This document shows, one piece after another, positions 2,336-62,597 of a stretch of DNA of 64,000 bases. The DNA is from Diploptera punctata (lineage: Eukaryota > Arthropoda > Insecta > Blattodea > Blaberidae), in NCBI GenBank assembly GCA_030220185.1, contig JASPKZ010007249.1, positions 310,001 to 374,000 on the forward strand, read 5' to 3'. The notes beneath the pieces were generated by a model that did no database searches, was not told the origin of the DNA, and saw only the letters and a program-made list of their open reading frames with translations. Position numbers and translations under genes: made by a program. How positions within the stretch are numbered: position 1 is the stretch's first letter; the number at the start of each line of letters is the position of its first letter.

Positions 2336-2380
2336 TTCTTGAACATGTTTCAAAACAATTCTGTTTTATCGTCAGCTTGT
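2336..2380 (-). ncRNA. Hammerhead-ribozyme-like motif (PLE-A copy 1)
   Basis: On the minus strand: CTGACGA (2375-2369), stem II AAAACA/TGTTTT, GAAAC (2351-2347), two-base loop AT, then GTT (2344-2342) as the cleavage triplet. The internal stem I is only about one base pair, so it may act as a dimer or be inactive. It lies just after the GIY-YIG coding remnant of the Penelope element. Confidence 0.6.
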
Positions 2381-2770
2381 CCAGACTGGTTTTATTTATG
2401 TTGCATTATGTTGCACAACCTGGATGTCGATGTCAGCTCCGTCCTGTGGTTGGCCAAAGAACCTCCAAACAAGGTCACGCTCTATCGGTATATCAAAATT
2501 CATAACTCTGTTTTTGTTCTTCTGAATATAATTTTTTTCCCAAATAGTCAGCTCTTTTGTATTTTCTAACTGTTTTAATAATGTAGTGTCTGAATTTGTA
2601 TTATGTTTTTCATGACCAAACATGAGCAGCAACTGCAGATTTTTCTATTTCCCCATTTTTAATATTTCTTAAGTGTTCTTTGGTTCTAATTTTTAGGTTC
2701 CTTTTTGTTTTTCCTATATATATCTTTTCACAACCCATGCATTCAATTTGATATATTCCTGACTATTTAT
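2381..2770 (-). pseudogene. Penelope-like element, GIY-YIG endonuclease remnant (PLE-A)
   Basis: The minus strand encodes the C-terminal nuclease of a Penelope-like retroelement. A Cys-x2-Cys block leads into [18 protein letters not shown] and then [13 protein letters not shown] frameshift follows, and a second frame continues with LKQLENTKELTIWE and VWRFFGQPQ. The same protein is encoded on the plus strand at 60723-61345. GIY-YIG nucleases nick target DNA to prime reverse transcription. This copy is broken and lacks the reverse transcriptase. Confidence 0.85.
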
Positions 2771-2780
2771 TTTTATATTT

Positions 2781-2822
2781 AATTAACAAAACTAAAATTA
2801 TGGCATTTCATGGGAAGGACCC
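2781..2822 (+). pseudogene. LINE fragment upstream of the BEL insertion
   Basis: The reading frame ends in MAFHGKDP, a segment that precedes the reverse-transcriptase thumb region in this LINE family. It continues in the same sense at 8093-8655 once the BEL/Pao element is ignored. The BEL target duplication GACCC (2818-2822 and 8093-8097) splits it. Confidence 0.75.
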
Positions 2823-3285
2823 TGTTGACGCCTCAGGTTAGCGGCCATTGAGTGGTTAGCGAGATATGTCAGTGTTGGCTAACCTGAGTCTTCTCATGGA
2901 TTGAACGGCGTGGTGTGTGCATCGGTCTTGTGCGTGTGTAGCTCCTAGAGAGCGGTCTTGTGCGTGTGTAGCTCCTAGAGAGCGGTCGTCTTGTGTGTGT
3001 GTGTGTGTGTGGCTCGTAGAGAGCAGTCGTGTCTTGTGGTGCGCTCTGTGTGAGTGAGTTGTGAGAGAACTGAACACGACGTGAGCACGTGGTAACCTTA
3101 ATGTATATCTAGTTGAAATATAGTCTTATTTTCATATGTTTAATCCTTTGTGTCACAGCAAATAAACTCCTAAATATACAGTCCACTTCAGAGAGAAGAA
3201 CTTTATAGCTACTTACAGGTTTAGAAATAAAGTTCCGTGAACAATTAACCTGTATGTGTAGTAAGTATATATTATCCCTGCTACA
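2823..3285 (+). repeat. BEL/Pao 5' LTR
   Basis: Starts TGTTGACGCC and ends CCCTGCTACA. It contains two copies of the CTCCTAGAGAGCGGTC motif and a (GT)n run near 2992-3010. The 3' LTR differs by scattered substitutions and a shorter GT run. Confidence 0.95.
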
Positions 3286-3291
3286 TATTTT

Positions 3292-3308
3292 TGGTCCTCC
3301 GGGCCGGA
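3292..3308 (+). other. Candidate primer-binding site
   Basis: TGGTCCTCCGGGCCGG begins six bases after the 5' LTR, where a tRNA 3' end (…CCA) would pair. I did not identify the tRNA. Confidence 0.5.
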
Positions 3309-3866
3309 TATAACAGTCGCCTTGTGAAAAGTCGTAAATATTGTGACACAAAAGGTATTACTTACGTGAAGAACTATGTTAAACAAAGAACAGTGAAAGC
3401 GTTACCACGTGGTGTTTCCGTGATCAACTAGTGGACCGCGACCCCCTTGCAGAACTTCGAGCTTCGAGAAGTCTAGTTCCAGTGCAAGGAAATATCATTT
3501 TGATAGTGAAGTGTCTTCCAGTGAGCTATCCTTTGATATCAACGGTGCTGTGACCTTCTAGTAGCGTGGTGGCACATTCTAGAGTACCACAGATGTCTGG
3601 TCGATTGGAAATCCTAGTAGAGGCCTGAAAGATAAGTTACTATTGCATGCTTGTATCTCCTATCTTAGAGTTGATGTCCCACCTCATTCCATAAACCTAG
3701 ACTTGATATTTAGAGAACAAATTGACTAATTTAATCAGAATTGGTATAGAGTCGAGCTGACATGATATTTCAAATTGCCATATTATTTGTGTGATTTATA
3801 TATATTTAAATTATTTTATAAAATATTTGCTGTGTTATATTGTTCGGTAATTTGTTATTTATCAAA
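3309..3866 (+). other. BEL/Pao 5' leader
   Basis: Untranslated leader between the primer site and gag. No long frame or other element is evident. Confidence 0.6.
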
Positions 3867-4751
3867 ATGTCATTCGAAAGTGAAACAAAGGCCACCCAAA
3901 AGCGAGGCATTCTTAAAAGAAGCCTTACTAATTTGGAAAATTATATTAATAGTGAAGCTATTTCCCTAAACACCTTAGTAGCTAGACAAAATAAACTAGG
4001 AGATATTTGGGAACAGTTTGAGGCAGTTAAGAATTTCTTAGAGCTTGAAGTAGATTCAAAGCCAGGTCAGGATCATGCAAGGGATAATGAGGATTTTGAA
4101 AATGAATATTATGAGTTGTGTGGCAAGGTTCAGGATTTAATAGAAAGTCTTCAAAAACCCACAGATAGTCATGGTTTTGATGATTCACGTGCATCTAGTA
4201 GATCGAGTTGTAGTTTTAAGTTATCGGCTATTCAGATTCCCCATTTCCAAGGAGAATTGACTGAATATCTATCGTTTAAGAATATTTTTGAGTCCCTTGT
4301 AATTAACAATACAAACTTAGATAATGTTCAAAGGCTTCATTATTTATTATCGTCACTGGAAGGCGAACCTAGGCAATTACTCAGTGATTTAGCGATAACT
4401 GAAGGCAATTTTGGTACGGCCTGGAAGTTAATTCAGCAAAGGTACGACAACAGACGCATGATATTGTCTCAGCATGTTAAGTGCTTACTAAGCTTACCTT
4501 CTTGTAGTACAGGTACTGCTGCAGAGTATAGGAAGGTACTTAACCAAGTAAAGGGCAATATTAATGCCATAGAGAATCTTCAGAGTGATGTTCTGTTATC
4601 AGATCTAATGTTGCAGGAAATTATATCGAGTAAAATGAAAGGTATTCATAGGTCAGAGTGGGAAGCTGAACATGGTGCTACGGATATCCCTAGCTTAGTC
4701 GATTTTATGGAATTTTTGGAGAGAGAAAGCTCAAACCTTGGAGCTCAGTGA
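3867..4751 (+). pseudogene. BEL/Pao gag (DUF1759-like)
   Basis: I take the ATG at 3867 (MSFESET…) as the start because it opens a basic N-terminus; an upstream in-frame ATG at 3840 lies in AT-rich leader. About 294 residues follow: a coiled N-terminal third, a Ser-rich linker (SRASSRSSCS), then the gag core with IQIPHFQGEL, LHYLLSSLEGEPRQLL and WKLIQQRY. These are hallmarks of the DUF1759 capsid-like domain. An in-frame TGA at 4749 stops translation before the zinc knuckles, which continue in the same frame. Confidence 0.92.
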
Positions 4752-6040: not shown

Positions 6041-6044
6041 AACA

Positions 6045-10210: not shown

Positions 10211-10299
10211 TTGAAACAAATTTAATCAAATTTAAAGTGGGAATTAACATTACGAGATACTTTCAATTTATAGATGAGTTGGAGAAAATGTTTTTATAT

Positions 10300-10627
10300 C
10301 CATCCATAGTAATTCTGCCCGAGGGAGGTCTTTTACAGCAATCATAGCATTTTCATGCTATGCTTTGCAGCTTTACTAGGGAATTAGAGGTGTGGTAGCT
10401 TCCCGTTGCTTTCCACACTGGTGAAGGATGATGATGATAATGATAAGGATGATGATGATGGCTGGATGATTTTCAGGGACCATTGGGCCCTAAGCTTCCT
10501 GACATTTGTCTTACAGGTGAGAAAAAATCCTGAAAAACCTCACCCAGGAGCCTGTACCAACCGGGAATTGAACCCGGGCCCACTGCGTGACAAAGCAGCA
10601 CACTACTTCGAGACCACAGTGGTGGAC
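10300..10627 (-). mobile_element. tRNA-derived SINE, family C
   Basis: On the minus strand it starts GTCCACCACTGTGGTCTCG, has a tRNA-like head with box B near 10570, and ends in a GATGAT-rich 3' region. A 12-bp target duplication, ATGTTTTTATAT, flanks it (10288-10299 and 10628-10639). Other copies: 16655-16998, 41698-41775 (fragment), 57267-57655 and part of 63496-63715. It is inserted inside a Penelope-type hairpin. Confidence 0.9.
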
Positions 10628-10639
10628 ATGTTTTTATAT

Positions 10640-10795
10640 GTCACCTTATAAAGTTGTGTGTTTTCACGATACTGGTATTTCGACAGTTGGAGTTTGACTG
10701 AAGATGAAGGTGAAATGACCTTTGAAACCAGTATCGTGAAAACATGCTATTTTATGAGGAGAGATATAAAAACATTTTCTTCAACTGAATTATAA
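10640..10795 (+). repeat. Penelope-type hairpin, right arm and loop
   Basis: TTTTCACGATACTGG near 10665 is inverted at 10727-10742, and outer arms pair across the SINE insertion (10265-10299 with 10755-10790). The right arm carries the hammerhead-like motif. Confidence 0.75.
10696..10735 (+). ncRNA. Hammerhead-ribozyme-like motif
   Basis: CTGAAGA (10698-10704), stem II AAGGT/ACCTT (10707-10711 with 10718-10722), GAAAC (10724-10728), loop CA, triplet GTA (10731-10733). Stem I is two base pairs (GA/TC), three with a wobble pair. Confidence 0.6.
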
Positions 10796-11179
10796 ATTGT
10801 TTAAAACACTTTAACACGCACTTGTTGATATCAGAATTTTCCAGTTGTCTCACTCTTTTCAGACTCTTTCAATTTTCACTTGAGGCACTTTTTAAAAGTT
10901 TGTCCTTATTCTTCAGATAAGTTGACAAATAATTTGGTTGCATCCCAAACTCTTTCACAATTTCTGATTTTTTTCTTCAAACTCTTTTTGATTTCTCAAA
11001 TGACGGCACTTTTTTTTCACAAAAAGTTAAAGTCTTGTACTGAATACTTGGTTTACTAAAAGACATAGTGACACTGATTTGCAGTACTCTGTAGCAGGAA
11101 TGTCGAGTGACAACTGAAGGGGCAGGTATTACAATACTATAAATACTGTATGCATGAACAATAACTGTAATTTAGCAGA

Positions 11180-11407
11180 TTGAGTTGCTCAATGCCAGTG
11201 TTCGGAAGCAGGGACAAGTTAATATCCCAACATCGAGAACTGAATAGGGCAGCAGATAGAAGGCACAAGTGTTGGAACTATAGCAGATGTGGATTGGGAA
11301 AAGTCAAATCTCAGAATGATGACCTCTTACAGAAACACATAGTTCTTCTGATCAACATAACATCAATTGACAAGAAAGTACTGAAGATGAAGCTGCCAAG
11401 GCTTTGA
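11180..11407 (+). pseudogene. Penelope-like element C-terminal remnant (PLE-B type)
   Basis: Only the last part of this 75-codon frame, near 11335-11407, is recognisable: LLINITSIDKKVLKM followed by a short tail and a TGA. The same tail occurs at 45290-45380 and, less decayed, on the minus strand at 59760. The upstream part is not recognised. Confidence 0.5.
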
Positions 11408-11420
11408 AATCGCGATCTAC
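11378..11420 (+). ncRNA. Hammerhead-ribozyme-like motif (PLE-B type)
   Basis: CTGAAGA (11381-11387), stem II AAGC/GCTT, GAAAT (11406-11410), a self-complementary stem III ATCGCGAT, triplet ATC (11415-11417), and stem I GTA/TAC. The motif overlaps the last codons of the Penelope-like frame. Confidence 0.65.
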
Positions 11421-13417: not shown

Positions 13418-13812
13418 GAAGAGAAAAATTATACGTTCAGACTGGGATCGAACCCAGGACCTTTGGCTTTCTAGGCCAATGCTCTACCGACTGAGCTATC
13501 TGGGCAAGTCCCAATCTAAATGCAAATTTACCTCTTATATATGCTGTTAATTCCAGTGCACCAAATGCTATGAAACCTTTGCTTCTATCTTGCAAATGGT
13601 GGCTTCTTTATTAAGAAGAATTGCATTTACAAGATAGAAGCAAAGGTTTCATAGCATTTGGTGCATGGGAATTGACAGCATATAAGAGAAACATTTTCAT
13701 TTAGATTGGAACTCACCCAGACAGCTCAGTTGGTAGAGCATTGGCCTAGAAAGCCAATGGTACTGGAATTGAGTCCCAGTCTGAGTATATAATTTTTCTC
13801 TTCAAATATGAT
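13418..13812. repeat. Inverted pair of tRNA-like repeats (family K) around a hairpin
   Basis: A minus-strand tRNA-like copy (about 13436-13507) and a plus-strand copy (about 13718-13790) face each other. The region between them is itself a 55-bp inverted repeat (GCACCAAATGCTATGAAACC near 13558 against 13648-13672). The outer tails AAATTATACG and TATAATTTTTCTCTTCAAAT are also inverted, so the whole 395 bp is one foldback. The tRNA-like part has box A TAGCTCAGTTGG and an AGA loop. It is most likely a foldback retroposon, not two tRNA genes. Confidence 0.8.
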
Positions 13813-14935: not shown

Positions 14936-14939
14936 TCTG

Positions 14940-15065: not shown

Positions 15066-15309
15066 ACTTAACTTTCATACATACAGTAAATTAAACTCAA
15101 AATGTTGGTTGGAATAATGCTATAATGGAAAAGAAGAAATAAGTATTTTACTACAATTAATTATTCAAGGTTTGTTAAAAAAATTATTTAAATAATTACA
15201 TATAATATTTTTGCATAGAGTAGTTTGGAGCTAAATAAATGTTTCACATAAAGTTGATAGATAAAATTAAAGATAAAGTTAAGAACATTATTTATTATAT
15301 GTAGGAAAT
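15066..15309. other. AT-rich spacer
   Basis: Nothing recognisable. Confidence 0.4.
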
Positions 15310-15430
15310 AACACTATGAGATTTCTTTTAATTATTAATGAGTTGGTTATTTTGACTCACCTCATATTTCTTGAAATATTTTAAGAAATATGAGGTGAGT
15401 CAAAATAACCAACTCATTAATGATTAAGAA
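15310..15430. repeat. Near-perfect 45-bp palindrome with CCTCATATTTCTT arms
   Basis: ATTAATGAGTTGGTTATTTT … CCTCATATTTCTTGAA is followed by its reverse complement with a loop of only a few bases. The arms share the CTCACCTCATAT end and the GGAAATAACACTATGAG boundary of the Penelope-type hairpins. No hammerhead core remains. Confidence 0.8.
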
Positions 15431-15539: not shown

Positions 15540-15780
15540 GCTTCCTCATAATTTGTATACTTCATGTGAACACATTTCAGCATGGTTGAATTCTATCATC
15601 AGCTCGTTCCAACTGTTAAATTGGTGGTTTGCGATCTTGTGGGATACTCCCTCTTCCCTCTTTAGGTTGACCGATGAACTTCCAAATCAAATTCTTTTCC
15701 CCAGGAATTTCAAAATTAATTTCTTTCTCCTGGTAGAAAATTTACATCCAGACATATAATGAAAAAGTAATGAATTTTTT
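15540..15780 (-). pseudogene. Penelope-like element 3' fragment (PLE-D)
   Basis: The minus strand keeps LIWKFIGQPKEG, the C-terminal signature of these GIY-YIG proteins (compare VWRFFGQPQ elsewhere), and then the hammerhead-like segment. No upstream nuclease is left. Confidence 0.65.
15565..15604 (-). ncRNA. Hammerhead-ribozyme-like motif (weak stem II)
   Basis: CTGATGA (15602-15596), an imperfect stem II (AGAAT/ATGCT), GAAAT (15578-15574), loop GT, triplet GTT (15571-15569). Stem I is minimal. Confidence 0.45.
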
Positions 15781-17291: not shown

Positions 17292-17560
17292 TTATTTAGG
17301 GGGCATTTAAGGGAGTTTTATGCAAGATGCCATCTAAAGATTGCAGTTGGAAATGGGGGGGTGGGGTAGAGAGCTTGAAGCTCTAAAGGTGTTGAATATG
17401 ATACCAGCGATCACATGAGTTGGAGTTATTCCTGAAGCAAAATAAATTAATTGCCAAAGATATATTTGATACCTAGGGATGCAGAAGATTAAGATTATTA
17501 AAGAAACCTCATAATATTACTTCCTAAAAATATTAAAGAAAAAAATGTTAAAACTGACAA
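17009..17560. other. G-run-rich DNA and (TA)n microsatellite
   Basis: Repeated G-rich runs (GGGGAGGTTGGGGAGGAGC near 17138) and a TA microsatellite at about 17260-17286. No coding signal. Confidence 0.5.
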
Positions 17561-19090: not shown

Positions 19091-19319
19091 AGGTAATCAT
19101 GGTATTCATCTGAAGAAGGTACAAAGTACTGAAATAGCTGTAACGAATTTGTATGTAAATAAATATGAAAATCGTATAAAACTTTTACAGTTTTATTTTT
19201 ATTTAATTAATAATGAATTTTATATAATGTTAAATGAAGAGTTTATATAAATTATACTTTTTTTTTATTATTCCAGCTTTTACAATGAATATACATTTTT
19301 CCGGTACCCATGTTCACAG

Positions 19320-27589: not shown

Positions 27590-28210
27590 ATAATTTTAAT
27601 TTCCAACACGCTTGGGATAAAATTAAAGTGGCCAATAAAAAAATCATCTCAAACACATATAGAATAAAACTAGACTTATAAACAAAAAGAAAATAATTTT
27701 ACCATCAAAAGCGTGGGGTGCTCTATATCAATTAATATATTTGATAATAAACAGATATTGGTAAAAGTAAAGTCTCTAAGAAGAAAATGTAAAAATCATA
27801 AAAACACCCCACGCTTTTGATGGTAAAATTGTTCTTTTTGTTGATAAGTCTAGTTTTATTCTATGTGTGTTGGAGATGATTTTTTTTATTTTCTGACGAT
27901 TCTGGTCAGGATTTTAGAAACAAATATGAAATTATTGTATTGTCACGGGTCCTTTACAAGTATACAAAGTTTCAAGTCGATCCAATGTTTCTATGTGGGT
28001 GAAAATCGTGTTCAAAAATTCCATTACATACGTAGATACAAAGACACTTTTTTTTATTTTCTGATGATTCTGGCCAGGATTTTAGAAAAAAATTAAATTA
28101 TTGTATTGTGACACGGGTCTCTTTACAAGTATACAAAGTTTCAAAGTCGATCCAATGATTTTTAAAGGTGGTGAAAATCGCGTTGAAAAGATTCCGTTCT
28201 ATAGATATAT
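27590..28210. repeat. Inverted repeat plus tandem duplication
   Basis: The stretch with AATCATCTCAAACACATATA (27640) and ACCATCAAAAGCGTGGGGTG (27701) returns inverted at 27806-27885. Beyond it a unit of about 170 bp is duplicated (TTTTATTTTCTGACGATTCT at 27886; TTTTATTTTCTGATGATTCT at 28051). It contains no coding sequence I can support. Confidence 0.7.
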
Positions 28211-36274: not shown

Positions 36275-36434
36275 ATGAAATTAATGTTGTGAAGTAAACA
36301 TTATGATGTATAATCATTTAAATTCATCGGATTATGGCTGAAGATGAACTTGATTATGTTTGAAACTGCAGTATCATGAGAAACATGAATTTATGAGGTG
36401 AGTAGTCAAAAAATGTTCTCTGATGAATTTCAAA
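36275..36434 (+). mobile_element. 160-bp hammerhead-bearing insertion
   Basis: Flanked by the 10-bp duplication ATTTAACTAT (36265-36274 and 36435-36444). It splits a repeat seen without the insert at 30170-30300. It contains GAAGTAAACATTATGATGT, the hammerhead-like motif and ATGAGGTGAGT, and has no coding capacity. Confidence 0.8.
36334..36377 (+). ncRNA. Hammerhead-ribozyme-like motif
   Basis: CTGAAGA (36338-36344), short stem II AAC/GTT, GAAAC (36362-36366), loop TGCA, triplet GTA (36371-36373). Stem I is ATGG (36334-36337) with TCAT (36374-36377). Confidence 0.6.
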
Positions 36435-44345: not shown

Positions 44346-47300
44346 AGTTTACTACATGGAAAATATACTTCAACTATTTTAGCAGGAAGATTTCAGTGAA
44401 AAAAGATATAAAATGAAAACTGTAAAGAGAGGAATCAAAAGAGAAGTGATGTTTCCTGCCCTGGAGATTCACTACAATGTTCTTAAAATTGTTTATAAAT
44501 TAATTTAATATGATTCAGATACCGAGCAAGTTGACTTGAGCTGTTTTGTTTGAGATTCTTATTCAGTAGATGGTGGGTTCAAACCCCAGTGCCGACAACC
44601 TAACAAAGATTCTCTCCAGATTTTTCACATCATCAAGACAATTGGTGACTTGGAATTTTACTACCAGGATCTTTATCATCATATTCAATATTTCACAGTA
44701 TCAATATGAATAAATAAAAAAAATAATTAGACACTATGTGATATTTAAATTAATATTGGGAAGTAAACATTATGAGGTTATATCATTAATAGTGAGTGGA
44801 GAACTTATTTTTAATGACTCACCTAATATAATTTCAAATTTCTTTGATACCGGCGGTTTCAGACAATATCTTGTCCCTCTTCAGTCAATTCATCAGTAGC
44901 CATGACTGAAGTGGGACAAGATATTGTCTGAAACCGCTGGTATCAAAGAAATTTGAAATGATATGAGGTGAGTCGTTAAAAATAAGTTCTCCACTCACTA
45001 TTAAAGACACTATGTGACCTTAGATGTTAAAAGGTCTATAAATAAGAATAAATAGAAGCATAAGTGATTTATAAATAATGCTAAATAAATAACATTGGAA
45101 TAACAAATACATTTCTCTTGCTATAACAGCAGTCAGAACATGGGATTTCCAGTTTGACTTGTTAGTTTCTGCTGAGAATTTGTATATTGCTAATTCTTAC
45201 ACTGGAGACAAGAGACATGAAAATACGCTATTTTTCTCCTAGCAGCTCTTTCAATTCAACAAACTGATTTCTGGGGATTCATACAGAGAAAATTAACCTC
45301 TACAAGAAGAAGTAGTTCTTCTGATTGACATAACATCAGTCGACAAGAAAGTACTGAAGATGAAGCTGCCAAGGCTTTGAAATTGCGATCTACTTAGAAA
45401 ATTGGATATGAGGAGAGGTATGAAGCATTTTAATTTAATCTTTAATCTCTGCACTTCTAAAGCCCGAGATTTCTGTAGCAGAAATAAGTAGCTGATTTCA
45501 AAATATCTGCGTATTTAAGGAACTTGTTAAATAAAGTACAAAGTTAAATTCTAACTCAATTATTAATTACAAATACACTGTCATCGTACTTATTCACCAA
45601 TTTTAATAAAATTAATTTTTTTTGGAGGTTCAGAATACCAATGAACATAAAGGAGAAGCCATCACTGTCAAAGAGTCAGAATTGATGACAGATTGAATGA
45701 TATGGACAGGTGTCAATAATATGTTACCTCTTAGATATGAGTTAAAATAATGATTATGTTCTGATGACAAAAGTATTTAACTTTATAATATAAATTACAA
45801 AGCAGTATGCAGATTTAAAATATGTGCATAACAGTTTTAAACAGAAGGCAGAGGACATTTTACAGCTGTAGTATAATATTTTTGGAACAAACTGATAATG
45901 ACGTCAATTCTAGTTCAACAAAAAGCTTTGACATCCCAAACAAAGAAGTGCTGAGCTATTTTCAGACATCAAGCAAAGGTGATTCTGTGTTGAATTAAAA
46001 AGAAAATAATTCAATATTATCTTTAAGCTAGATATTATGGTTCATATTAAGACATCAGACATCTTTTGTACAGAGCAACTAGATATTTCTGATGATTAAC
46101 AAGAGACCAACATATATCACATTCATAAACCAAAACTTGAATAGTCTGATAGTCTATATTAGACTGGTTTGAGAGGATAAATTAAAATGGATTATATAAT
46201 GACAAACAATATGGTATCAATTGTAACTTTTGTTTCATATATTCAAAATATAAACAAAATTCAGCATACATTTCTTTTCAAGTTTTTCTTTCTAGGCACT
46301 CATTTCAGTAAATAAATGTTTAAGTCAGGTAAACATCTTACCTCATAATTAATAGAATTCTTGAGAATATGTTTCAGTATACAGGGATAATGAAACATGT
46401 TCTCAAGAATTCTACAAAACTGAACCTCATAGTGTTACTTCCTATTGAAATATGGTATTAATTTGATGTTTTATTATTAATTTAACACTTCTCACTGAAG
46501 GATAAATTATATTTGAAGAGAACAAATTTTACAACAAAATTTTTTTTTACAAAATTATAATGTATATAAGAAAAAAATTTGCATCTAGATAGCAACTTGC
46601 CTTGGTAGCTCAGTTGGTAGACCATTGGCCTGGAAAGCCAGAAGTCCTGGGTTCAAGTCTCGGTCTGGGTGAAATTTTTTCTCTTCAAATATGGCATTAA
46701 CTTGTTTTAGTACTTGTGTTTTTATTTTATATAGGCTTATAGGTAATTGAAATTGTCTTCTTAATTAGAAAAAATCTTCTTTTGCCTGTTGCTAAAAATT
46801 ATTTATTTTTTATTTATTTCTTTTGTTCCTTCCATTTTCTATCCTTCTATTATTACACCAAACAAAGGAGAGACAAAATGCAAATCTGCACATTGCATAA
46901 GTAATTAATATCATAAATTTATTGTCTTTAGGAAAAATGGTCAGGAGCAGTAAAAATTTATGTATATGGACATGTGTCTTTAAATCTGGCTTATGTTATA
47001 AGAGATTAAATTTATAAATTTCAGATATATATCAAAGATTGCAGTTTAAAATGTTTGACTGTTATAAGTAATTTGATTTAGGCTTGAATTACATATTGAA
47101 ATTAAATTTATTATGGTGTATGATTATCACAATGTTCTATTCTCACAATATTTATATCTAATTTTATCGTGCAGTACATACTTAATTTTACATCTATTTA
47201 GGGGAGAAAAATATGGGTGCAAAAGTATTAATTTTCTAAAGCAAATAAATAAAAAATAAATCTTATGATATTAACAGAAATTAAACACACTGAACATAAT

Positions 47301-50300
47301 TACAACACATAGAATATTTTGAATATTATGACATTGGTATTACTTACTCTTATATTGACAACTGGCATCATTGGGAAAAGTTCTTTTAGCCTTGATTCCA
47401 AGATAACGCCTTGTTGAATATCCCACCTAGCTCCTTCCATGAAAAGTCCATGGACATAGGCACCCTCTCGCGGGGCAGACCTGACAATGAAGTTATACAA
47501 CATAACAAAACAAATTTTTTTTCTAAAACTGAAAATAAAACTTAATGACAGTGTTAATATAACTAACTAACTCACTCTCACTATTGAATCTGTAGGTTCA
47601 TGGTCGCATGGACATAAGCTCTCCATACATTCCTATCCTGAGCCAATGTTTTCCAATCACTCCCTGTATAATCTACTTCCCTCAAATCATAGTTTATGTT
47701 ATTCTCCCACCTCATTCTTGGTCTAGTATCTGGGCGTTTTCTCTCTGGTTTTCATACAAGAAGCTTCCATGCACATCTTTTATTCCCCATTCTTGCCACA
47801 TGCCCTGCCCATCACAAGACAGTGTTAATATACAGTATCTTCTTGATATTGTTGAAAAACTATTTTACATTATTTGTATTATGTATTGAAGTGCCCGATG
47901 TAAATTGAGAATCATTATCATAATTATTGAACAATTCATACATTTTAAATACACAGGAGTAACATAACTACTCGTGGGATGTAATAACTAAAGTAAGAGA
48001 CCAGGTTTCCATAATTAATTCATGAATAAGAGACCAAGTATCTGAAGCCTCTAAGAATATCAGGTTGCTTAACCCTTCAGAGCGGGTGGAGTTAAATGGC
48101 CGGCAATATGGCAATGTGGGAAGAGAATCATGGGTATTTAAACCCAGCCATTCAGTGCCAGTATTCCAATAATGCATTTAAATGGAAATATCTTGAGTAA
48201 TTTAAATGTTTTTTCAACTCGTTTATGGTGAACCCTTAATATAATATTTAATTAATTAAATTTGTTACGGTTCTCACGTAACATCTCTGCATATGCAGAC
48301 TTATTTATGATTAATATTTAATTTTAGGAAGTTATATTTTGAGGTTATTTTAATTATATTATTTTTGGTCTGGACATCTTACCTCAATATTAATGTTGAT
48401 TTGTTCTTGGACATGTTTCAAAACAATTCTCTGTTTTATCTTTGTCTGGGAAAGCTGAAGATAAAACAGAGAATTGTTTTGAAACATGTCCAAGAACAAA
48501 TCAACATTAATATTGAGGTAAGATGTCCAGACCAAAAATAATATAATTATTTATGATTGTTGTGCCACAGTTGAAGTAGGTCCTCTTTGTACATAGTAGC
48601 AGAGTAAATTGTACTAGGAATTCTTTGAAGAATTCAGAGAACCGGCTTTACCTAACAACAACGAAATATTTACACAAAGAGAAGGGTCTTCAAAAAAAAA
48701 AAAAAACAGAAAGAACTTCAAAAATTGGTGTGATAAATCTTCAAAGCATAAACCAGCTGTTTGACATTCGGGCACCAATAAGTGTATTTTTTCCCCTTGT
48801 GTTTACTTTGTTCATGTTTATTACAAACACATTGCTTCTATGCATTGACCTTCTTTCTTGTAGGGGGGGGGGGCAGCCTTCACCAAATGTGTCTTTCTAA
48901 CACTTTGGAAACATTATTTTAGGTCGTGTGCCTTCAAAAAATTGTCTTTCAACACATGAGACCTGTTGTGCTAAAAGACCTTCATCAACCCTAAATTTCA
49001 ATGTCTTTCTTCTGGTTTCCAAAGTGAAACCAGTTGATGATATATGACTATAATAGCTTCACTGGAGGTGTGGACTTGAAAGATCAACATGCTACATGCC
49101 GGAAGATCAAGGGTTCGAGTCCCGGTGGATCAGGATTTTTAAACTGAACCAAACCTTCAGGAGGCACTGTGACCCCGGGGTTGACTCAGCCTCTAACTGA
49201 AAAGAGTACCAGATGCTTGTTATGGGCCGTCAGACAGAGATAAGTACCCGGCTTACATCAAGTACCGATAGTCTAGAAAAAGTGGGAGCCTTAACCTCCT
49301 AATATCCCAAGGAGCTCCTAAGGTCTGTAGTGGACCACTTTACCTTTTAGATACTGAGTGAATAGTAGGCTAACTACCTTTCCATAATGTAAGGGTATCG
49401 TCAATTGAAATATATATATATATATATATCTGAAATTTACTGTTGTGGTCCTGTACTATAGCGTAAATCGGAAATAACTTTGTTGGGCCTTTATATGTAT
49501 TGAATTTTGCGACATTATTATTAAAAATGAAGAGATTTCAAAATAGATTCAATTTAATAGACAAGCTAATTTACAAAAAAAAGGTGAATTTATTTTTCTA
49601 AGAAATCCTTTATCAAGTTATAAATATAAGAAAAATGTCAGAGGCCGCAAGAGTAAATGCAAATATAAAATTATTTTTAACTTGTAACTCAGGGCCGTCA
49701 TCGATTAATATATGCACTAATATAAACTTTGAAGTCTCTACATAAAATTTATATAAACGGTAAATAGTTAATGTAAACACAAAGATCATAATAACAGTTT
49801 AAAGCACTGCGTGTAGCTAGCGTACATGTCACGTTGTTCCGCATTTGGTGAAGAATTCAACCTGCGTACATGTCACGTCGCTCCACGCTGACGGGTTAAA
49901 ATATATCATATAGAAGAATACATATCTTAATATTAAGATGAGTGATGACATAGCCATTGAAATTTGGGCAGAGACAAAAAACACAAAAAAATTATGAATA
50001 CAGTAGAAATGAATATGCTATGAGATACTGTTATAAAAAAAAAGATTAGATAGAAATGAAGACAAGATTTGAGACAACAATACAACATAATGACATAAAA
50101 ATGTATAAGAACTAGAAAAAGAGAGTGAAATGGGAGCCAATGATACCAGGTTATTAGAAGAGTAGTTTGGGATTTATATCTGAAAAGTAAAAGAGATATC
50201 GGCAGAACGAAGAAAGAATGTAAAGAAGGATTGACATAATTTTCTAATGAATTATCTCTTTTAGGTAGAATTTCTTATCACTCACCTCATATTGTTCTTC

Positions 50301-53300
50301 TTATTTGACTATAAACTAGTTTCAGAACATAGTTTCTGTTTCATCCTCAGTATCGTCACAACCGTTGTTCTGTCGTCTTGAAGAGCCATCCTTCGCTTGG
50401 CAGACTGCCAAGGATGGAACAGAAACTATGTTCCGAAACTAGTTTATAGTCAAATAGAAGAACAATATGAGGTGAGTGATAAAAAATTCTACCTAAATGA
50501 ATATACCTCATAGTGTAAATTCATAAAATAAGGTATTATCTCTTGTTTGTTGATAAACAGGCCATGACCTTACTTAAAATAATAAGAAAAAGTTTTATGT
50601 ATAGGTTATGTTTTTTTTACTAATACAAAATAGAAAGAAAAAAATAGTACAGGTATTAAATCTCTTAAATCATGAACAGAAAAATACTAATAGTGTCAAA
50701 AGTTGCAACGAAGAAGAAATCTAGGGAGAGGGAAGGGGAAATGCTAGTGATCTCAATATTTTCTTATAAATGGTACAACATTTTTTAAGTTTTTGTATTT
50801 GAGATACAGGTTCAAAAGAATTAACCTACTTTATGGAAATATATATATATATATATATATATACAATTTTTAAGGAAACATATTTGATTAGATTTTTATT
50901 TCAAATGCCTTGTAAGATACTGGTATTTTAGAACAAAATTCTAAACCTAAGCATTAGAAAGAAGCTGGTCCTTTTGATTTTTTAAATGAAGTATTTTAAT
51001 AGAAACATTACATGGGATGAAGGTATTTCCTTTAAATGTATTATATCAAAATCCAGAATTTTATAGTGAATAAGCATTTCCAAAAGTAAGAGATGATGGC
51101 AGACTCAAATTATTTATTAAGTAGAACCTCATAATGTTACTTCCTATTGTATTTTCATAATAAAACAAATACTATACTGTAATTAATATGAGTTAGAATA
51201 TATACGACTCACCTCATATTTGTAGATTTCTTGAAGATCATATATTTGATATGTTACATATCAATGTCAATTCTTTCTAAAGAGTTAGAAAGAATGATAC
51301 GTAACATATCGAAACCTTGGTTTTCAAGAAATCTACAAATATGAGGTGAGTCGTATATATTCTAACACCTATTAATTAAAATAAACCTCTTAGTTCACTT
51401 CCTTTAATATTAAATACTATACTGTATTTAGTTATGACATTTATTTTAAAATATAAATTTTATATATAAAATAAATGTAACAAAATTACATGTGAGCTGA
51501 AATATACAAAATAAATATAGCCAAAAATAAACTAGGGAAGAGATTTTGTAACTGTTCACTTTTCCTGCCTTCAAAATTGACATTGCACCCTTCTTTTATT
51601 TTCTATTTCACCTTGGTAATATTAAAAATTTTGTATGGCTTAAGCAAACTTACGTGAAATCTTCCTTCTGTTTTTTAGTAACATCACACTGTAGACACAT
51701 TTTATCCAAAGGCAGTTCATTTTTACGAGCAGTTGACTGCATTATAGCAGTCAGAAAAGACTGAGGATTGAAGAATCCTGCCAACCATACAGATGAAGGT
51801 AACTGAAACAATTTCAATGGATTTTAAAAAGACATGAACAAGACTACATGGTATCAATTACATATATATCATCTTATTTACTAACCACAAAGTCTGTAGA
51901 CCAGGTTTCTAATTCTCTAAGTCTTAAAAGTAAGTCAGCAAACCAGGCAGTCAAGCCTTGAAGTGAAGGATAAGCTCGCTGGGTCCAAATATGAGGAACT
52001 TGATCTAGAAATAAGGCATTCTGAAGCTCTTCCATATCTCCAGTAATTGTCAATTCACCCTGGAAAGAAAAACACAAATAACTTATTTTAAAGTACAGTA
52101 TACTGCATTTTATATCTTCCAAAGATTTTTTTCTCCTCCTTTGCTCATTATACATTAAACACTACAAATGTACAAAAGATACAGTTATTCCATCAATATA
52201 GTTATGCATCATTCCATACTATTTAGTTATCACATTACTGTATAAATAAAAAAATTGAATGTAATATTGCTATCTGTATGCTGAGCAAGGGACAAGATGC
52301 ATGAGAATTTCATAATTTGAATATGGAAAATAAATTTAAAACACAAAATTGATAGGAAGTAGCATTATGAAATATTTTATCATGAGTAATGCCACGAGTG
52401 ATTTCCAAATTTATCTAGAGAATTTTGAAATCAAGAGTGGCATCTGTTAGGACTATTTAACGAATAAAATTAAGCTGTTTACTCACAAATCATTATTTAA
52501 ATATAGTTATTTTAAAATATTTATATATTTAATGTAAACGGCAATGTTTGAAAACAAATGAGAAACATTTGTTATGTTTCATTTGTTCATCACTGCAACC
52601 AGATCATATTATTTATTGCCAGAGATCACAATATTGTAAGAATGCACTCTAGCATAGAAAAAAATTAAACACATCAAACTGTTTATAACCAACATTATAG
52701 GATATTAATTAATTTCTGATGTCCTATGATGTAAATATGTCAATTATATTTTTCTGGAACGTAAATACCTGGGACATAATACGTTTAAGAAAGTGCGAAC
52801 AGTAGTTTCTTTTTATTGTGGTATAATCAATTGCTACAAATGTTTTTTTTATTATATCCCACAAGCATTATCTGGTTACATTCGTGCACTATATATGTAC
52901 AATCTGGGAGCCACTTCCATTCTAGGATTCTTACATCTTTATATATAAATTGCTATATTCAACATATTTCTTAGAGAGTCAGTCACTGCAAAATAATGCT
53001 CTGACCTATTCAGAATGTTAAAAAGGAGGAGCTTTCTTTAATTTGATAAACTTTAGTTGATAAATTTGAGGTGAAACATGACTGTGATTGGTTGTAAATA
53101 AAAATTCATTGAAACGTGATTGGTCATTTATTCCCATTTGGGGCATGAGTTAAATAGTAAATGAAATTTGATTGGTTATTTACATCTCACCTTATATTTT
53201 GTTCTTTCACTTGGAATATGTTTCATTTCCCCAATTTTCAGCCAAAAACTGACTGTTGAGATGACCATTGGAAGCTTATATGTCTTTTCCCTTTGATGTT

Positions 53301-53738: not shown

Positions 53739-53783
<45 letters not shown>

Positions 53784-56700
53784 TTTTTCATAAAAGAAAT
53801 TGAATCAGTTATTGAGACTAACTCAAAAAGACCACAAAATAAAATTCATGTTGTGGATTTCATGATATTATACTACAGCATGTTGTGATGATTAAGAAAA
53901 GCCATAACATGTTCAGAATGTTATTAATTAATACCCAAAAAGTTGTGATGGTTTTTAAGTGGTGATATATATAAATGGAAATAATATTTTCTCTGTTATA
54001 AATTCCAAATATATTGAAGATGTAAACCAGATTTCAACAGTTGTGGATATGGCTGAAGATGGAAGGGATGCCTCCAGAAACCGCAGTTCCGAGCTAGAAG
54101 AACACAAAATATGAGGTGAAATACAACTCAGTTTTTATTAATTATAACCTGTTCACCGTATTGTGATTGCATCAGCTAGTGTTCCAAAATGTGTTATGGC
54201 ATTTCTTAATCACCAGAATGCACTGTGATCTAATATCATGAAATTCATAACACAAATTTCGTTTTGTGGTCTTTTTGAGTTAGTTACAATGCATTTTGAC
54301 TGTTTTTATAAGTGCCATAACATGAATGATGTTGTGGATGATTTAAAGAGACCACAATACATTGTGGATGGTTTTTTTCTTTTTTCGCTCAATGACCATA
54401 TTCTTTCATTGAGCCTAGTTATTTAATAGGAAATAGTGTTGGATAAGGCCCATTGGATATTTCTAGGATTTTTTTCTTTATGGAAAAAATAATATTTGAA
54501 CAAATAAATTGAATTGGTCCTTTACACTTCACCTCATATTAACTCTCTCATCTGGATAGGTCATCAGCCAAAACCAACTGAGTATATAGAATAGATTCAA
54601 TTTCTTTGTTAAAGTGCCTCATATTGTGACTTCCTATCAATTTTGTGGGTAAAATATTTAAACAATTAATTTCACGAATGATTATATTTTTGCTAATTAT
54701 GAATGAATGATTTTGTTAATCACTCATGCTCTATTTAAAACTATTTTTCTCCTAAAGTATAATTACCTTGAGACCAAGATCAAGTTCTTTGAGTGAACGT
54801 TTCATTTCTCCTGTGAGATAGTTCATGCGCTCACACTCCTGAAATGCAACTATAACATATGGAGTACGTTCCTCTACTTTGTTCATTATTTCTACCATGT
54901 TGAAATCCTCAGGAAGTTTCTCCATGATTTCATCAACAATCTGCTTCACCTGTAAGAAAGGTACAGGACGTCTAATTCTGTCAGAACACTAAAATAAAAA
55001 GTAAAGAAGGGAAATAATATATTATTACTATAAAATTAGAACTAAAAACAAAATCCGATGTGAAACTAAGATATGGAAAATATTATTAGAACCAAATACA
55101 ATACCAAACAACCCCTGATCAATTGCAGTTGCATCATTTCATCTTGAAACTGGTCATGATTGCTTGGCAGCACATCTACATAGAATTAAGCTACTAGACT
55201 CTCCATACTGCATAGTATGCAAGAACACAAATACGATAATGAACAAGGATCGCTTGATGTTCTGCACTGATCTTCAGAAAATAGTTGGAACACCATTCCA
55301 AATTGCTGAATATTATTGGGAAGCCCGCAAGCGAATGATGACAAATCAAGAGCTTCAGAACATTTGAATACTACTACTACTAAATTAGAACTCCTTTTTA
55401 TTTATATTTTGTTGATTAATAGCATATCTGAGGTCTGAGTATATAACTGGTGGGTTTGGAAATGTTAATTATTAATGAGTTGTATATTTTTACTCACCTC
55501 ATATATCTTGATTTTTATGCTGACTAGTTTCATCGCTTCTGTTCGACATTCTCGAGAAGAAGAAATATGAGGTGAGTCAAAATATACAACTCAGTAATAA
55601 TTAAAAGAAACCTCATAGTGTTATTTCCTACATATATTTAGTAAAGTTGACTATTCAAGTCATAAGGAAAACAAATAAGAACAAACTGTATTGAGAATGT
55701 CGCACAGAAGCCACGAAGCTAGTCTGCATAAAAATCAAGAAATATGAGGTGAGTTAAAATATATAACTCATTAATAATTAAAAGGAACCTCAAAGTGTTA
55801 TTTCCTACATACATTTAATAATTGGAAATTTTAATTGTAGAAATTTCAATGTCAGGGCCAGAGAGGTAGTGGAGTTGCATAATTTTTAATTGCTATGTTG
55901 TGCATTAGATTCCTGATCAAATTCCAAACCCCTTCACAGTGGATATGTTAAAAAGTATGTCATACTGTTAATAATAATTCATCCATCAGATGAGGCATAG
56001 GGCCGCATGCAAATACATTAGTCTCTACTCAAATTACTTCCAATCACTGGTGAGCTGACTTTCTGTGAGCAAGTGCAAAGATTGAATTAGCTACCCACTA
56101 ACTGGTCACGCATGAAAGTCATCATTTTCGTAATATTGGCAAGAAATTACCCAGAATTCTCAGCGATAAAACCACTTCCGTTATTTTCCTCTGCTAGAGG
56201 AACGCATTTACGCTTGCGTCCCGCAAATAATACCGTATACGATTCTCCTGTTCTTTCAGTTGAATTCTTTGGTAGACTCTATCAAATTTCTCTTCTCCGC
56301 ATATACCGAAAACATGATCATAGGTCTTCAAGGTCCGACACCTTGGATAAAGCAGCAAAGTACGCGGCAAGGTTTCAAACTACATCGGTTACCATCAGTT
56401 CCCATCGGGTTGCTCACGATTCATTCTCTGCAAAGTCACCTCGCCAGGTAGCTTAGGAATTTTGACAATTATTATCGCATGAACAGATTTTTGAGTACGC
56501 AAAAACGTATTTGGATGCAACTTTCTCAGCAGAGTACAGACAGAGAACGACTTTTACGGTCTAATGCATTCATAGATTCGAGCCTTTAAGTCTTGTAATC
56601 TCCTTGGTGTTAAGTCTTGTAATCTCCTTGGTGTTTTTTTGACAGGAGTAGGTTTTGTGCAAATAACAGGCTTTGCCTTATCCTTTCTCCCCATAATCAT

Positions 56701-59700
56701 CATCCTTCAAAAAAACACATTTATATTATACACGAACAATTAAACATAATAAATTACTGTAATCAATGGTAAAGAGAAAGCTTGGATGGGAATGAAGCCT
56801 GAATTAGCTCAGTGGTTCACAGCATCAGCACGGAAAGCTGAAGGTTTGGGGTTTGATTCCCGGTTCAGGCAAACATTTTTCTGTATTTAAATTAATGTTG
56901 GGAAGTAAACATTATGAGGTTATATCATTAATATTGAGTGGAGAACATATTTTAATAACTCACCTCATACAAACCAAATTTCTTTGAGGTGTTATTAAAA
57001 ATATGTTCAATACTCAATATTATACATTTTTCTCTTTACCATTGATTACAATAATTTAGTAGTGTACATTAATTTACTTATTTCAATCACAGTAATAGCT
57101 TTAGCTTCTTAATATTAATTTAATAAGTATCCTATAGATATGTGGAGTCCCTTCATGTCTTCTTAATGTAGAAGCCATTCATTGTGTATTTGTGAATGAT
57201 GATTCATTGTATTTGAATGTGGGACAAAGAGAGTAAGGTAAAGGGAGGATTTATGCTTGGATGGGAGTCCACCGCTGTGGTCTCGAGGTAGCGTGCTGCC
57301 TTGTCAAGCAGCGGGTCTGGGTTCAATCCCCGCTCAGGACAAGTTTCCTGGGTGAGGTTTTTTTTCGGGGTTTTTCCTCACCTGTATTTAATGTCAGGAT
57401 ACTTTAAGGCCCAAACGGTCCCCAAACATCATCTGGCTATCATTATCATCAATATCACATTCACCTCATTAGATTAAGTTTAGGTTTAAGGCCTCTCCTG
57501 GCACATCATTACTCATCATCATCACCCATCATATCATTGGGGCAGCATAACCCCGCCTTCCAGGCGCCCCAACCTCAGAAGTGGATTACAATACGCCAAT
57601 GCTAGGAGAGAATATCTGAAATGTCGAATAACAAACAGGTGGCATGAAAAAAAAAGCTTGGATGGGAATGAAGCCTGAATTAGCTCAATGGTCAGAACAT
57701 GAGCTGAAAGTTCGGGGGTTCGATTCCTGGTTCAGGCATCATTTTTTCTTTTTACTATTGTTTACAATAATTTAGTTGTGTACATTAATTTACTTATTTT
57801 AATCATAGTAACACTTTAACTTTTTAATATTAATTTAATAAATATGCTGTAGCTATGTGGAGTCCCTTCATGTCTTCTTAATGTAGAAGCCATTCATTGT
57901 GTATTTGTGAATAATGATTCACTGCATTTGAATGTGGGACAGAGTAAGGTAAAGGGAGGATTTATGCTTGGATGGGTAAGAAGCCTGAATAGCTCAGTGG
58001 TCAGAGCATCAGCATGGAAAGGTGAAGGTTCGGGGTTCGATTCCCAGCTCAGGCAAACATTTTTCTATGTTTTTATTATTAATTTCATACATCTCAATGA
58101 TGGATAAATCATATTTAAAGAGAAAAATTATAGTTTTTATTATTAATTATTTGCGTTTAGATCGGTACTTGCTCAGGTAGCTCAAATGGTAGAGCACTTG
58201 GACTAGAAAACCAAGGGTCCCGGGTTCAAGTCCCGGTCTGAGCGTATAATTTTTCTCTTTAAATATGAAACATTTTTCTCTTTACTATTGATTACAATAA
58301 TTAAGTTGTGTACATTAATTTACTTATTTCAATCATAGTATCACTTTAGCTTCACAATATTAATTTAATTTAAACATACACTCATCCTAGATTGCTCTCT
58401 GTCACACAATACTATTAATGTTTTCTGTGTAAATTAAAAAGAAATCAATCAAGCTCCATATATCTACTAAGTGCACAACCTGAAGCATGAAAAATGAGTG
58501 GATAGCAAAGAAGAAAAAAAAATGTATTTATGATAATGATACTAACTTTCTCTTCTGGAGTGACTGTAGCTCCACCTGAAGTTCCTGCATCACGAGGCTG
58601 CATCTCAAATACAGTTCGAAATAGATTTTCAGATGTAGTAGTAAGAAAACCAATTTCAGCATTTGGATGCAGGCCATAGAGATAGGGTGATTCTGGTGGC
58701 ATCATTTCATCTAAAAGAAAGAAAACACATCTGTTATAAATATTCAATGATCATGGCTTTATTATAAATTTAACATTTATTATTGAAGGTCAAATTATAT
58801 TTGAAGAGAAAACTATATGCCTAGACCGGATTTCAACCCATAAACTTTAGATTTATATGCTAATGCTCTACCACTGAGCTATCCAAGGTCTCCAATCTAA
58901 ATACAAATTTTTCTATGTTTTTATTATTCATTTCATACATCTCAATGGTGGATAAATCATATTTTTTCTCTTATACATTCCAATACCCAAGAGAAAAGTC
59001 TTCTGAAATAAGAAGCTGCCATTTGTGTGTCAAGCAATGTTTTGCAAGCCTTTGACACTCTAGAGAATTGGAATGTATAAGACAATATAATAAGGTGTGA
59101 CAATTTCGATCCTGGGTTCACACACCAATCTAGGTGTATAATTTTCTCTTCAAATATAATTCAATGACTGTGTTTATTAGAGTAACTAGATTCTTAAGAA
59201 AAATTACTTATCTTACCAATATATGCATGATATCCAACATAGTCTGTGTTTGGTGGAGCTGGAAAACCAGGAGCCAGTAAAAGTTCACCATCAACCTAAA
59301 ATAAAATATTTATCAATTATTCTAATGCAACCTTGTAATGAATTACTTTTCCTGAAAAAGATATCACTAAATGATAGCAAATTTATATATTTATACAAAT
59401 ATATATTTTGTTGAAATTCATCGGAGAACATTTTTGACAACTCACCTCATAGAATTCGTCTTTTTCACGATACTGCAGATTCAAACTTAGTCTAGTTCAT
59501 GCTCAGCCATAACTCCGACTCACGAGTTATGGCTGAGGATGAACTAGACTTAGTTTGAAACTGCAGTTCCATGAAAAAGACAAATTCTATGAAGTGAATT
59601 GTCAAAAATATTCTCCGATGAATTTCAATGAATATACCTCATAATAAAAGATAAATTAAAATGTTTCATACCTCTCCTCATAATTGATCTTCTAAGTAGA

Positions 59701-62597
59701 TCGCGATTTCAAGTTCATGGTGAACCCATCCTCAGTACCATTTTACCAACTGATGTTATGTCGATCCGAAGAACCTCTTCTTCTTCCCTCTATTGGTGGA
59801 CCGATGAACCTTTAGATCAGGTCAGAATTCGTGGGAATTTCAAAGTTTATAAGTTTTTCTTTGTTTTTCTGAATGTGGATTTTTTTTCACACTGTGAGTT
59901 CCTTTTGTTTATCTATTTGTTTAATTAGACTAGCTTTTGATTCAATTAGATGTTTTCAGACCAAGCATGAGCAGCTACTGCTGACTTTTCCACTTCTGCA
60001 TTTTTGACGTTTCTAAGATGTTCTTTCACCCTTGTTTTCAAATTTATTTATATTTTTTCTATATAAATTTTGGCACAATCCCTGCATTTGATCTCATAAA
60101 TTCCTGATTTGTTTTCTTCTTCAACTTTTTCATTTTTATTGGTTTTAATTATTCTATTAAGACTGTATTCGTTCTTCGGTGCCAATCTTATATTAAACTT
60201 TTTGAATTTTTTTTTTAAACTTGTAGTGTTTCAATGGATGGTAAGTGAATTTCTTGAATTCTATTTGTTCTGTTTATTTTGTAAGTGTGCTTTCATTAAT
60301 TAATTTTTCTCTTTTAAATTTATTTATTTTCTTGTATACCATATTTTCTTCATAACCGTTATCTATTACAACATTAATTATGTATTCTTTTTCTTTTTCA
60401 TAATTTTCTTTGCTCATAGGTATATCTACCAATCTATCCAATCAATCTATGTGTCAAACTATTGAATACTGCCTCTTTGTGAGCAAAATGGTTGAATCCT
60501 GAAGATTTAATATAGGAATTAATCACTATGAGGTTTAATTTCACCATATTTAATATAATTATCTGTCTATATGTGTATTCTTTCTGTATATTCCAAATTC
60601 TATCCTATTTTCTCCATTTCTTGTTAAATTAAGATCTAAAAATGGGATTTGTCTTTCAATTAAATTATTGTACTATTTTTTTCATCAAACCCGTTTTCTC
60701 TTGCTACTTCGATAATGTGTTCACAAAAGGATAGAAAAGTATAAGAAACAAAAACTGATCAACAAAAAATGAAAAAGAAAAACCACCTATGAAAAAATAC
60801 AGGAAATTCACATATCACCCTTGGGCACACAATAAATTCCAAAAGATATTTGAGAAGTTTAATATTAAATTAGCACTGAAAAATAATCACAGTTTAAATA
60901 AACTAATAAAAACCAACCAAAATGAAAAAAAACTGATAAAAATAAAAAATCAGGAATATATCAAATTGAATGTACTGGTTGTGAAAAGATATATATAGGA
61001 AAAACAAAAAGAAACCTGAAAATTAGAACCAAAGAACACATAAGAAATTTAAAAAATGGGGAAATAGAAAAATCTGCAGTTGCTGCTCATGTTTGGTCTG
61101 AAAAACATAATACAAATTCAAACACTAAATTATTAAAACAGTTGGAAAATGCAAAAGAGCTGACCATTTGGGAATAAATCTATATTCAGAAGAACAAAAA
61201 CAGATTTATAAATTTCGAAATATCGACTGAATGTGACCTCGTTTGGAGGTTCTTCGGCCAACCGCAGGAGGGAGCTGACATCGACATCCAGGGTTTACAA
61301 CATAAATCCAACCAGTCTGGACATGATGCTGAGGATGATTAGAAGACTAATCGAAACATGTTCAAGAACAAATCAACATTAAATTGAGGTAAGATAGTAC
61401 AGACTCAAAATAACTTGATTAAAGAACCTCAAAATATTACTTCATAAAATAAAACATTAATTACTTGTAAGGAGTTGGCATGCTACAAAATATGTGACAT
61501 CATTTACCATTTAAATGAGTTTGGCTGTAAGGTAACATTCCATATAAAACTAATGTCACACTAAATTCTTGGTTACATCCTTATTTGAGGGCAGTTTTCA
61601 ATCTTCAGAAAATATTCTACAAGGAGTTGAAGTGCATGTTACATATAATATTTAATTAATTTCAGTTATTATTTTTTTAAGATTTAAATTACAATTCTTT
61701 ATACCTCATCTCATATCCAATCTTCTAATTATTAAACTCCAAGCTTGACAGGCCTAGAAAGCTCTTGGCCTACCAGCTAGCTGCTGGCCTCACATCCACA
61801 TGTGTTAATCACAGAAGTAGACGATCATCTAGCCTGTGTAGGGGTGACATGTGGTCAGCTTGCTGGGTCCCCCAGCCATTATAGCTGGTCTTCTCAACCT
61901 GGAGTCGCTACTTACTGTAGCTACCCAAATGCCTCACCGGTCACATACTGGCCAAAATTCCATGAGAAAATTTCTTCCCCCAAGGAGACTCGAACCAGTG
62001 CAAGTCCCATAGCTCTGCGCCAAGGCTTCTTGCTTTAACCACTCGGCTATGGCATGGTACTGTCTTCTAATTATACTGGTTTCAAAACCTAGGTGGTTTC
62101 ATATTTAGTAATATCTTGACAAATGTTATGAACTGCTTCTTCAGTTCTTCTGAATGACATAACATTGGTCAAGATATTAACAAAGATGAAACTACCTAGG
62201 TTTTGAAACCAATACAATTAGAAGACTGAATATGAGGTGAGGTGTAAAGAATTTTAATTTAAATCTTAAATTTAACCTCATAGTGATTTTTCCTATAAAA
62301 GTTCAATACTAATTTGTTATTTTATTAAAATTAACATATGTACCAGTTCAGGTTGCATTAGTTCTTCCAGGTATGAAATACAGAGACGTCTGTCCCAATC
62401 ATCAGTGATATGGCCTCCATACATAATTTCACCAAATAAATACCGCAGATCTTCCCACGGAATTTTTGAATTGGCTTCTAGGTAATTGTAAAGAACAGAT
62501 ACACTAATGTTCAGATCACCTGTAAGAAAAATTATTGAAAATTAAATAAATAATACAGCATATATATATATATAGCATTTATTTTTCTTATCATACC

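Follow-up and report, generated by a model that had tools for sequence, protein, structure and literature searches.

The window analysed here is a stretch of 64,000 nt from Diploptera punctata (contig JASPKZ010007249.1, positions 310,001 to 374,000), and all positions given below are counted from its first base. Open reading frames (ORFs) between 3822 and 7654 on the forward strand belong to a BEL/Pao-type LTR retrotransposon (DUF1759, DUF1758, integrase and DUF5641), the named relatives of the last ORF being from arthropods. Two reverse-strand matches to the C-terminal domain of dynein heavy chain, at 51877–52161 and 54755–54988, place the window probably in or near a host gene. Ten tRNA matches between 13434 and 58888 (at the Rfam gathering threshold) are the heads of tRNA-derived SINEs; two of them, at 13434 (-) and 13715 (+), lie in a longer palindrome (13454–13766) with their tRNA-like ends outward.

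Dispersed over the same stretch are thirteen motifs resembling hammerhead ribozymes (HHRs), eight on the forward strand and five on the reverse (2348, 15575, 44857, 50320 and 59707). These motifs are real, and they are scattered end-pieces of Penelope-like retrotransposons (PLEs), a kind of element already known to carry hammerhead motifs and to which the window adds further members. The initial annotation had described, at thirteen coordinates, a CTGANGA box, an inverted repeat, GAAA, a short stem III and an NTH triplet, and all of these are found in 13 of 13, the sites having been selected on the CUGANGA...GAAA core that all of them contain. Subfamily A is represented by the cores at 2348–2375 (-), 48455–48484 (+) and 61329–61356 (+), subfamily B by those at 11381–11409 (+), 45354–45382 (+) and 59707–59735 (-) and subfamily C by those at 36338–36365 (+) and 59533–59560 (+). 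The other cores lie at 10698–10727 (+), 15575–15602 (-; degenerate), 44857–44884 (-), 50320–50350 (-) and 54053–54080 (+).

By alignment, all thirteen are homologous copies of one unit of about 105 nt and so do not represent thirteen independent origins. The unit runs in the order stem I, CTGANGA, stem II (usually set off from the box by one extra base), GAAA, a short stem III, the NTH triplet and a common downstream block, ATGAGGTGAG, the similarity extending about 60 nt beyond the core into this block. A profile built from the 13 copies also picks up the partner arms of the palindromes discussed below. By eye, the (T)ATGAGGTGAG block (e.g. at 44963, 50467 and 59441) resembles a start codon with a 5' splice donor after it.

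Three of the motifs lie 3' of fragments of a PLE endonuclease of the GIY-YIG type. The first fragment, at 60926–61174 (+; PF01541, E = 1.3e-7), precedes the core at 61329 by 154 nt; the second, at 59955–60128 (-; 64% identity to the first), precedes that at 59735 by 219 nt; and the third, at 2537–2774 (-; two tblastn pieces with 93% and 60% identity to the first), precedes that at 2375 by 161 nt. The best named match of the endonuclease is itself from Diploptera punctata, with 92% identity over 59% of 83 aa. No reverse transcriptase (RT) match was found within the window in the 116 of its 122 ORFs of at least 70 aa that were scanned, the PLE coding matches there being endonuclease fragments only. 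The earlier proposal that the motifs are tied to PLEs and to short foldback units is borne out, since endonuclease fragments lie 5' of three motifs and the foldback arms are the PLE terminal unit.

As a plain pattern, CTGANGA-N4..34-GAAA is present 20 times in the window as compared with 6.2 +/- 2.7 times in shuffles, an enrichment which taken alone is weak evidence. A structural descriptor that requires stem II (score at least 3.5) is far more discriminating: it finds 11 sites, against a mean of 0.195 and a maximum of 2 in 200 dinucleotide shuffles. With stem I required as well, the figures are 8 sites and 0.035, and with stricter thresholds 7 and 0.015. Ten of the 11 descriptor sites are among the thirteen first reported, and the eleventh, at 19110, passes the descriptor outside any family context and is probably due to chance. 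Two further matches to the plain pattern, at 27893 and 28061, failed the descriptor and were rejected. The reported sites below the stem II cut-off are 36334, 15565 and 50311 (cores 36338, 15602 and 50350), the second of which is degenerate. The covariance check proposed in the initial annotation gave a negative result: the Rfam hammerhead models match none of the 13, neither at the gathering threshold nor at E up to 10, probably because stem III is short and a base is added. Several weak microRNA matches in the same search are located on long palindromes. This result shows that the Rfam hammerhead models overlook this class in this window.

The evidence for a fold lies in the stems. Pairs were counted by scripts with hand-set positions, the MAFFT alignment having misaligned stem III. 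If a single extra base is allowed after A9, 60 of 65 stem II pairs form in the 13 copies, as against 33 with none and 37 with two, and copy by copy one extra base gives the best pairing in 12 of 13, the exception being 54053 (4/5 without it and 3/5 with it). This base is T in 12 copies and G in one, and in nine of the 13 copies the T completes an ATG. Permutation tests, which count related copies as independent and whose figures are therefore not exact probabilities, gave a mean of 41.5 when the 3' strands of stem II were re-dealt among the 13 copies, 60 being reached in 0 of 20,000 trials; nine less related representatives have 42 of 45 pairs, reached in 1 of 20,000; and stem I has 48 of 65 pairs against 31.9 when permuted, with 0 of 20,000 reaching 48. 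Helix I has at least three contiguous pairs in nine of 13 copies, and only one or two in subfamily A (2375, 48455 and 61329) and in the degenerate 15602. The covariation of stem II, together with that of stem I in most copies, supports a conserved RNA fold. The initial annotation had argued that the pattern is not just copying; this is right in that pairing is kept between subfamilies though the sequence changes, but all 13 are nevertheless copies of one unit.

The stretch from A15.1 to U16.1, comprising stem III and its loop, is self-complementary in 11 of 13 copies (e.g. ACTGCAGT, ATCGCGAT, ACTAGT and ACATGT), region lengths being hand-set, G-U pairs allowed and an odd centre base ignored in 44884. 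The self-complementarity includes central bases that are unable to pair inside one short hairpin. It is named as a known signature of dimeric hammerheads in the legend to Figure S8 of PMC3088659 and in passages of PMC6466107, and fits the idea of a dimer.

The position of the motif was then examined in the 3.12-Gb assembly that contains the window. A search blind to the HHR, with the endonuclease protein as query, gave 144,167 candidates, of which the best 30 of 150 scored were oriented and inspected, the window's own copy among them (L031). In 24 of these best 30 loci an intact motif follows the endonuclease within 600 nt, 151–165 nt past the match, while the 600 nt upstream contain one in 0 of 30. 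The query was a subfamily A sequence, to which the matches are about 94% identical, so the 30 loci are close relatives and not 30 lineages. In the other six the core is mutated in five, and none was seen in the last (L047). An inverted endonuclease end lies upstream in 10 of the best 30. One locus (L032) has the stem II GATTGG/CCAATC where 61329 in the window has GATTAG/CTAATC, a two-sided change.

Terminal units of the other subfamilies were also used as queries, and since these contained the core the resulting core counts are not blind. For subfamily C (30 loci in 27 distinct elements, from 976 candidates of which 40 were scored, L001 being the window's own), the core is intact in 24 of 30, the end of a PLE ORF lies upstream in 15, an endonuclease in nine and an inverted unit in 16. 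For subfamily B (40 of 2213 candidates scored; 20 loci, including L064 from the window), the core is intact in 20 of 20, with an endonuclease upstream in nine and an inverted unit in five. Core conservation in subfamily C is not significantly above that of the rest of the unit (0.981 against 0.951; 1297 of 10000 random column sets are as high), so that the case rests on differences between subfamilies and not on selection within one of them.

Three larger regions were taken from the genome. In L061, an RT (RVT_1, 2.8e-8) and a GIY-YIG domain (1.4e-4; 22.5 bits, cut-off 22.6) are encoded in consecutive separate ORFs, with an HHR unit at the 3' end, an inverted HHR unit at the 5' end, a tail only on the 5' inverted arm and a 12-bp target-site duplication (TSD). 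L063, in which a TSD was sought and not found, carries two HHR units that point the same way and are 762 nt apart, the arrangement needed for a dimer in cis.

Within the window, the palindromes consist of the reverse complement of the unit followed by the unit, i.e. two units head to head without an ORF, and profile matches are inverted pairs or singles, no direct array of one family being found there. In five palindromes, those near 10.7, 44.9, 48.45, 54.05 and 59.5 kb, the centre coincides with the start of the core or is no more than about 15 nt away from it. Foldbacks with a core span 44742–45004 (TSD AGACACTATGTGA), 48313–48546 (TSD TTATTTATGATT), 50261–50534 (TSD ATTATCTCTT), 59411–59628 plus tail and, with ends set by eye, about 10245–10800; the core at 54053 is in a diverged palindrome (53811–54290), the degenerate core at 15575–15602 belongs to a palindrome centred near 15745, and that at 36338 has another arm of only about 16 bp (by eye; TSD ATTTAACTAT). 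A foldback at 15291–15423 is made of terminal-unit ends without an HHR core (TSD TTAAGAACATTA), and another, at 51181–51411, is without an intact one (TSD AAATACTATACTGT). At 56883–57023 a short foldback is inserted in a tRNA-derived SINE, and its TSD, ACATTTTTCT, consists of SINE sequence. Conversely, a SINE-like repeat (about 10310–10627) is apparently inserted in the left arm of the 10.7-kb foldback, with GTTTTTATAT flanking it on both sides (by eye).

TSDs were sought in 13 outlined units, namely 12 foldbacks and the PLE near 61.3 kb (the palindrome search gave 36 pairs, 25 of them listed). Perfect direct repeats of 10–14 bp were found at the ends of seven of the 13, a count that is not blind, the end windows having been set by eye; at random, at least 10 shared bases occurred in 43 of 3000 pairs of 65-nt windows. 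Among these 13 units, none was found at 10.7, 54.05, 59.5 and 61.3 kb, and only 7–8 nt at 15.75 and 55.6 kb. A tail of about 37 nt is present on one outer side only in ten units, near 44.9, 48.45, 50.4, 51.3, 15.35, 56.95, 36.3, 10.7, 55.6 and 59.5 kb (the last by eye). By eye, TATGAGGT of the unit is complementary to ACCTCATA in the tail, the counterparts in subfamily A being TTGAGGT and ACCTCAA. More copies of the tail, with 0–2 differences from the search pattern, are found at 17506, 46424, 51126, 55610 and 62275, pointing to more degraded PLE insertions. The foldbacks are the published Penelope architecture minus its ORF. A limited literature search met no ORF-less foldback PLEs in titles and abstract openings, which is no proof of absence.

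Folding predictions separate the copies. As isolated RNAs of about 65 nt, eight of 13 have a mean stem II pair probability of at least 0.71 and five of at most 0.30 (36338, 54053, 50350, 2375 and 15602), the PLE-linked core at 2348–2375 (-) having 0.04. In foldback transcripts (eight copies tested), the predicted probability falls from 0.97 to 0.00 at 59533, from 0.92 to 0.00 at 44884 and from 0.71 to 0.00 at 48455; of the weak folders, 50350 goes from 0.12 to 0.00, 15602 stays at 0.00 and 36338 and 54053 remain low and nearly unchanged. The core at 10698, where the other arm is without a core, keeps 0.95. For five foldbacks whose arms are nearly complete, the predicted structure is a long hairpin of 231–274 nt at -110 to -163 kcal/mol. 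In complete foldbacks, pairing with the other arm is thus predicted to win over the ribozyme fold. Head-to-head pairs of end-pieces make up most of the short hairpin units, and in them the ribozyme is probably masked.

The reading we prefer, and which as an identification of the PLE terminal unit we hold with high confidence, is that these are minimal type I HHR motifs in the pseudo-LTRs (pLTRs) of endonuclease-containing PLEs. The terminal unit of about 105 nt lies directly 3' of the endonuclease ORF, and units occur in head-to-head pairs, with or without an ORF, that bear the tail of about 37 nt at one end and are often flanked by target duplications of 10–14 bp. Catalysis is a separate matter. 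The initial annotation supposed that these RNAs self-cleave, alone or as dimers, and for all 13 together this is to be doubted given the lack of an Rfam match, a helix I of one or two pairs in four copies, the poor stem II in five of 13 and masking in foldbacks. In subfamilies B and C, self-cleavage is plausible for copies that are single or linked to a PLE; it is doubtful in subfamily A and unlikely in complete foldbacks. For the motif as such, catalytic activity is fairly probable, though less certain than the PLE identification.

The alternative that survives best is compatible with the PLE identification and contests only function: the motif would be a relic, a terminal sequence conserved in PLEs for other reasons (e.g. 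protein binding or as a splice-donor region) and without ribozyme activity here. It gains from the same Rfam result, from the weak helix I of subfamily A, the poor predicted stem II in five of 13 and the unexceptional core conservation in subfamily C, as well as from the HHR of the lizard element PAc, which according to the relevant passages of PMC11167929 cleaved only with protein and was dispensable for insertion in vitro. Against it, the pairing of stem II and most of that of stem I persists from one subfamily to another despite sequence change, the catalytic positions are invariant in a set of genome loci (albeit loci picked by the core pattern) and the motif is retained in 24 of the best 30 endonuclease-defined loci. 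We consider the relic unlikely, though it deserves some weight.

Much less probable is that the foldbacks are MITE-like DNA transposons whose terminal inverted repeats contain HHR-like motifs by chance. The units are indeed short, palindromic, dispersed and flanked by target duplications, but the duplications vary from 10 to 14 bp where a fixed length would be expected of a MITE, the one-sided tail makes the inverted ends unsymmetrical, the arms are the PLE terminal unit that adjoins endonuclease ORFs and L061 has the matching architecture with RT and endonuclease ORFs inside, so that this explanation is very improbable. Least probable of all is that they are animal retrozymes, the short non-LTR elements that occur in tandem and carry canonical type I HHRs. 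Retrozymes are likewise short and non-autonomous and have a type I motif, but their expected direct arrays are missing from the window, where the units are head-to-head pairs with a short stem III and linked to a PLE ORF.

PLE enzymes acting in trans would have inserted the ORF-less foldbacks as short inverted cDNAs, arising either by self-priming or by priming on both target strands. Two-strand extension of the PAc type, which could give head-to-head ends, and self-priming are both possible routes. The HHR would be used at one step in the RNA cycle of the PLE, working best as a dimer formed by its self-complementary stem III and possibly only together with a PLE protein, and in complete foldbacks it would be masked by the opposite arm and mostly inert. 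More tentatively, and with the odds somewhat against it, ORF-less one-tailed head-to-head pLTR pairs may constitute a self-perpetuating, non-autonomous and MITE-like class, a 'foldback PLE', moved in trans via two-strand or self-primed cDNA synthesis, that accounts for many of the 'dispersed' minimal hammerheads of animal genomes.

The relevant passage of PMC7761336 calls the role that HHRs play in PLEs unknown. With many related PLE copies bearing intact and naturally broken HHRs, covarying subfamilies and clean one-tailed foldbacks, the need of the HHR for mobility becomes a question that can be asked. The ends of the foldbacks may show at which points reverse transcription begins and stops, and of all these findings it is the one-tailed foldbacks without an ORF that most deserve to be followed up.

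Minimal HHRs of PLEs were reportedly recognized by Cervera and de la Pena in 2014 and by Lunse, Weinberg and Breaker in 2017. As described in parts of the papers that cite them (PMC7761336, PMC7229834, PMC6155905, PMC6466107), they are of type I with a very short stem III, lie in PLE pLTRs or dispersed in non-coding DNA and are prone to dimerize; the window copies are alike in all these respects and, set against those descriptions, differ in that 12 of 13 have a single base added between A9 and stem II. Animal retrozymes share with the window units their non-autonomy and a type I HHR, but according to the relevant sections of PMC7229834 have direct tandem repeats, canonical HHRs and circular RNAs.

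PAc, the Poseidon element of Anolis carolinensis, likewise has an ORF with RT and GIY-YIG domains and a pLTR HHR near the ORF boundary, and its enzyme cuts and extends both DNA strands (passages of PMC11167929). The PAc ORF begins at stem II, with C3 and G8 lying before its start codon, so that the layout may be the same here or general for PLEs (same source). The copies of PAc are described in these passages as tandem, with foldbacks unmentioned there, whereas the window units are head to head. The closest parallel in architecture is Penelope of Adineta vaga, for which the corresponding parts of PMC3846280 describe inverted pLTRs, an optional tail on one of them, TSDs of 8–10 bp, host sequence between pLTRs mobilized in trans and head-to-head palindromes explained by self-priming. 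The window has the same inverted pLTRs, one-sided tail, short TSDs and head-to-head palindromes, and differs from what is described there in that many of its units are without any ORF and consist of two terminal units head to head.
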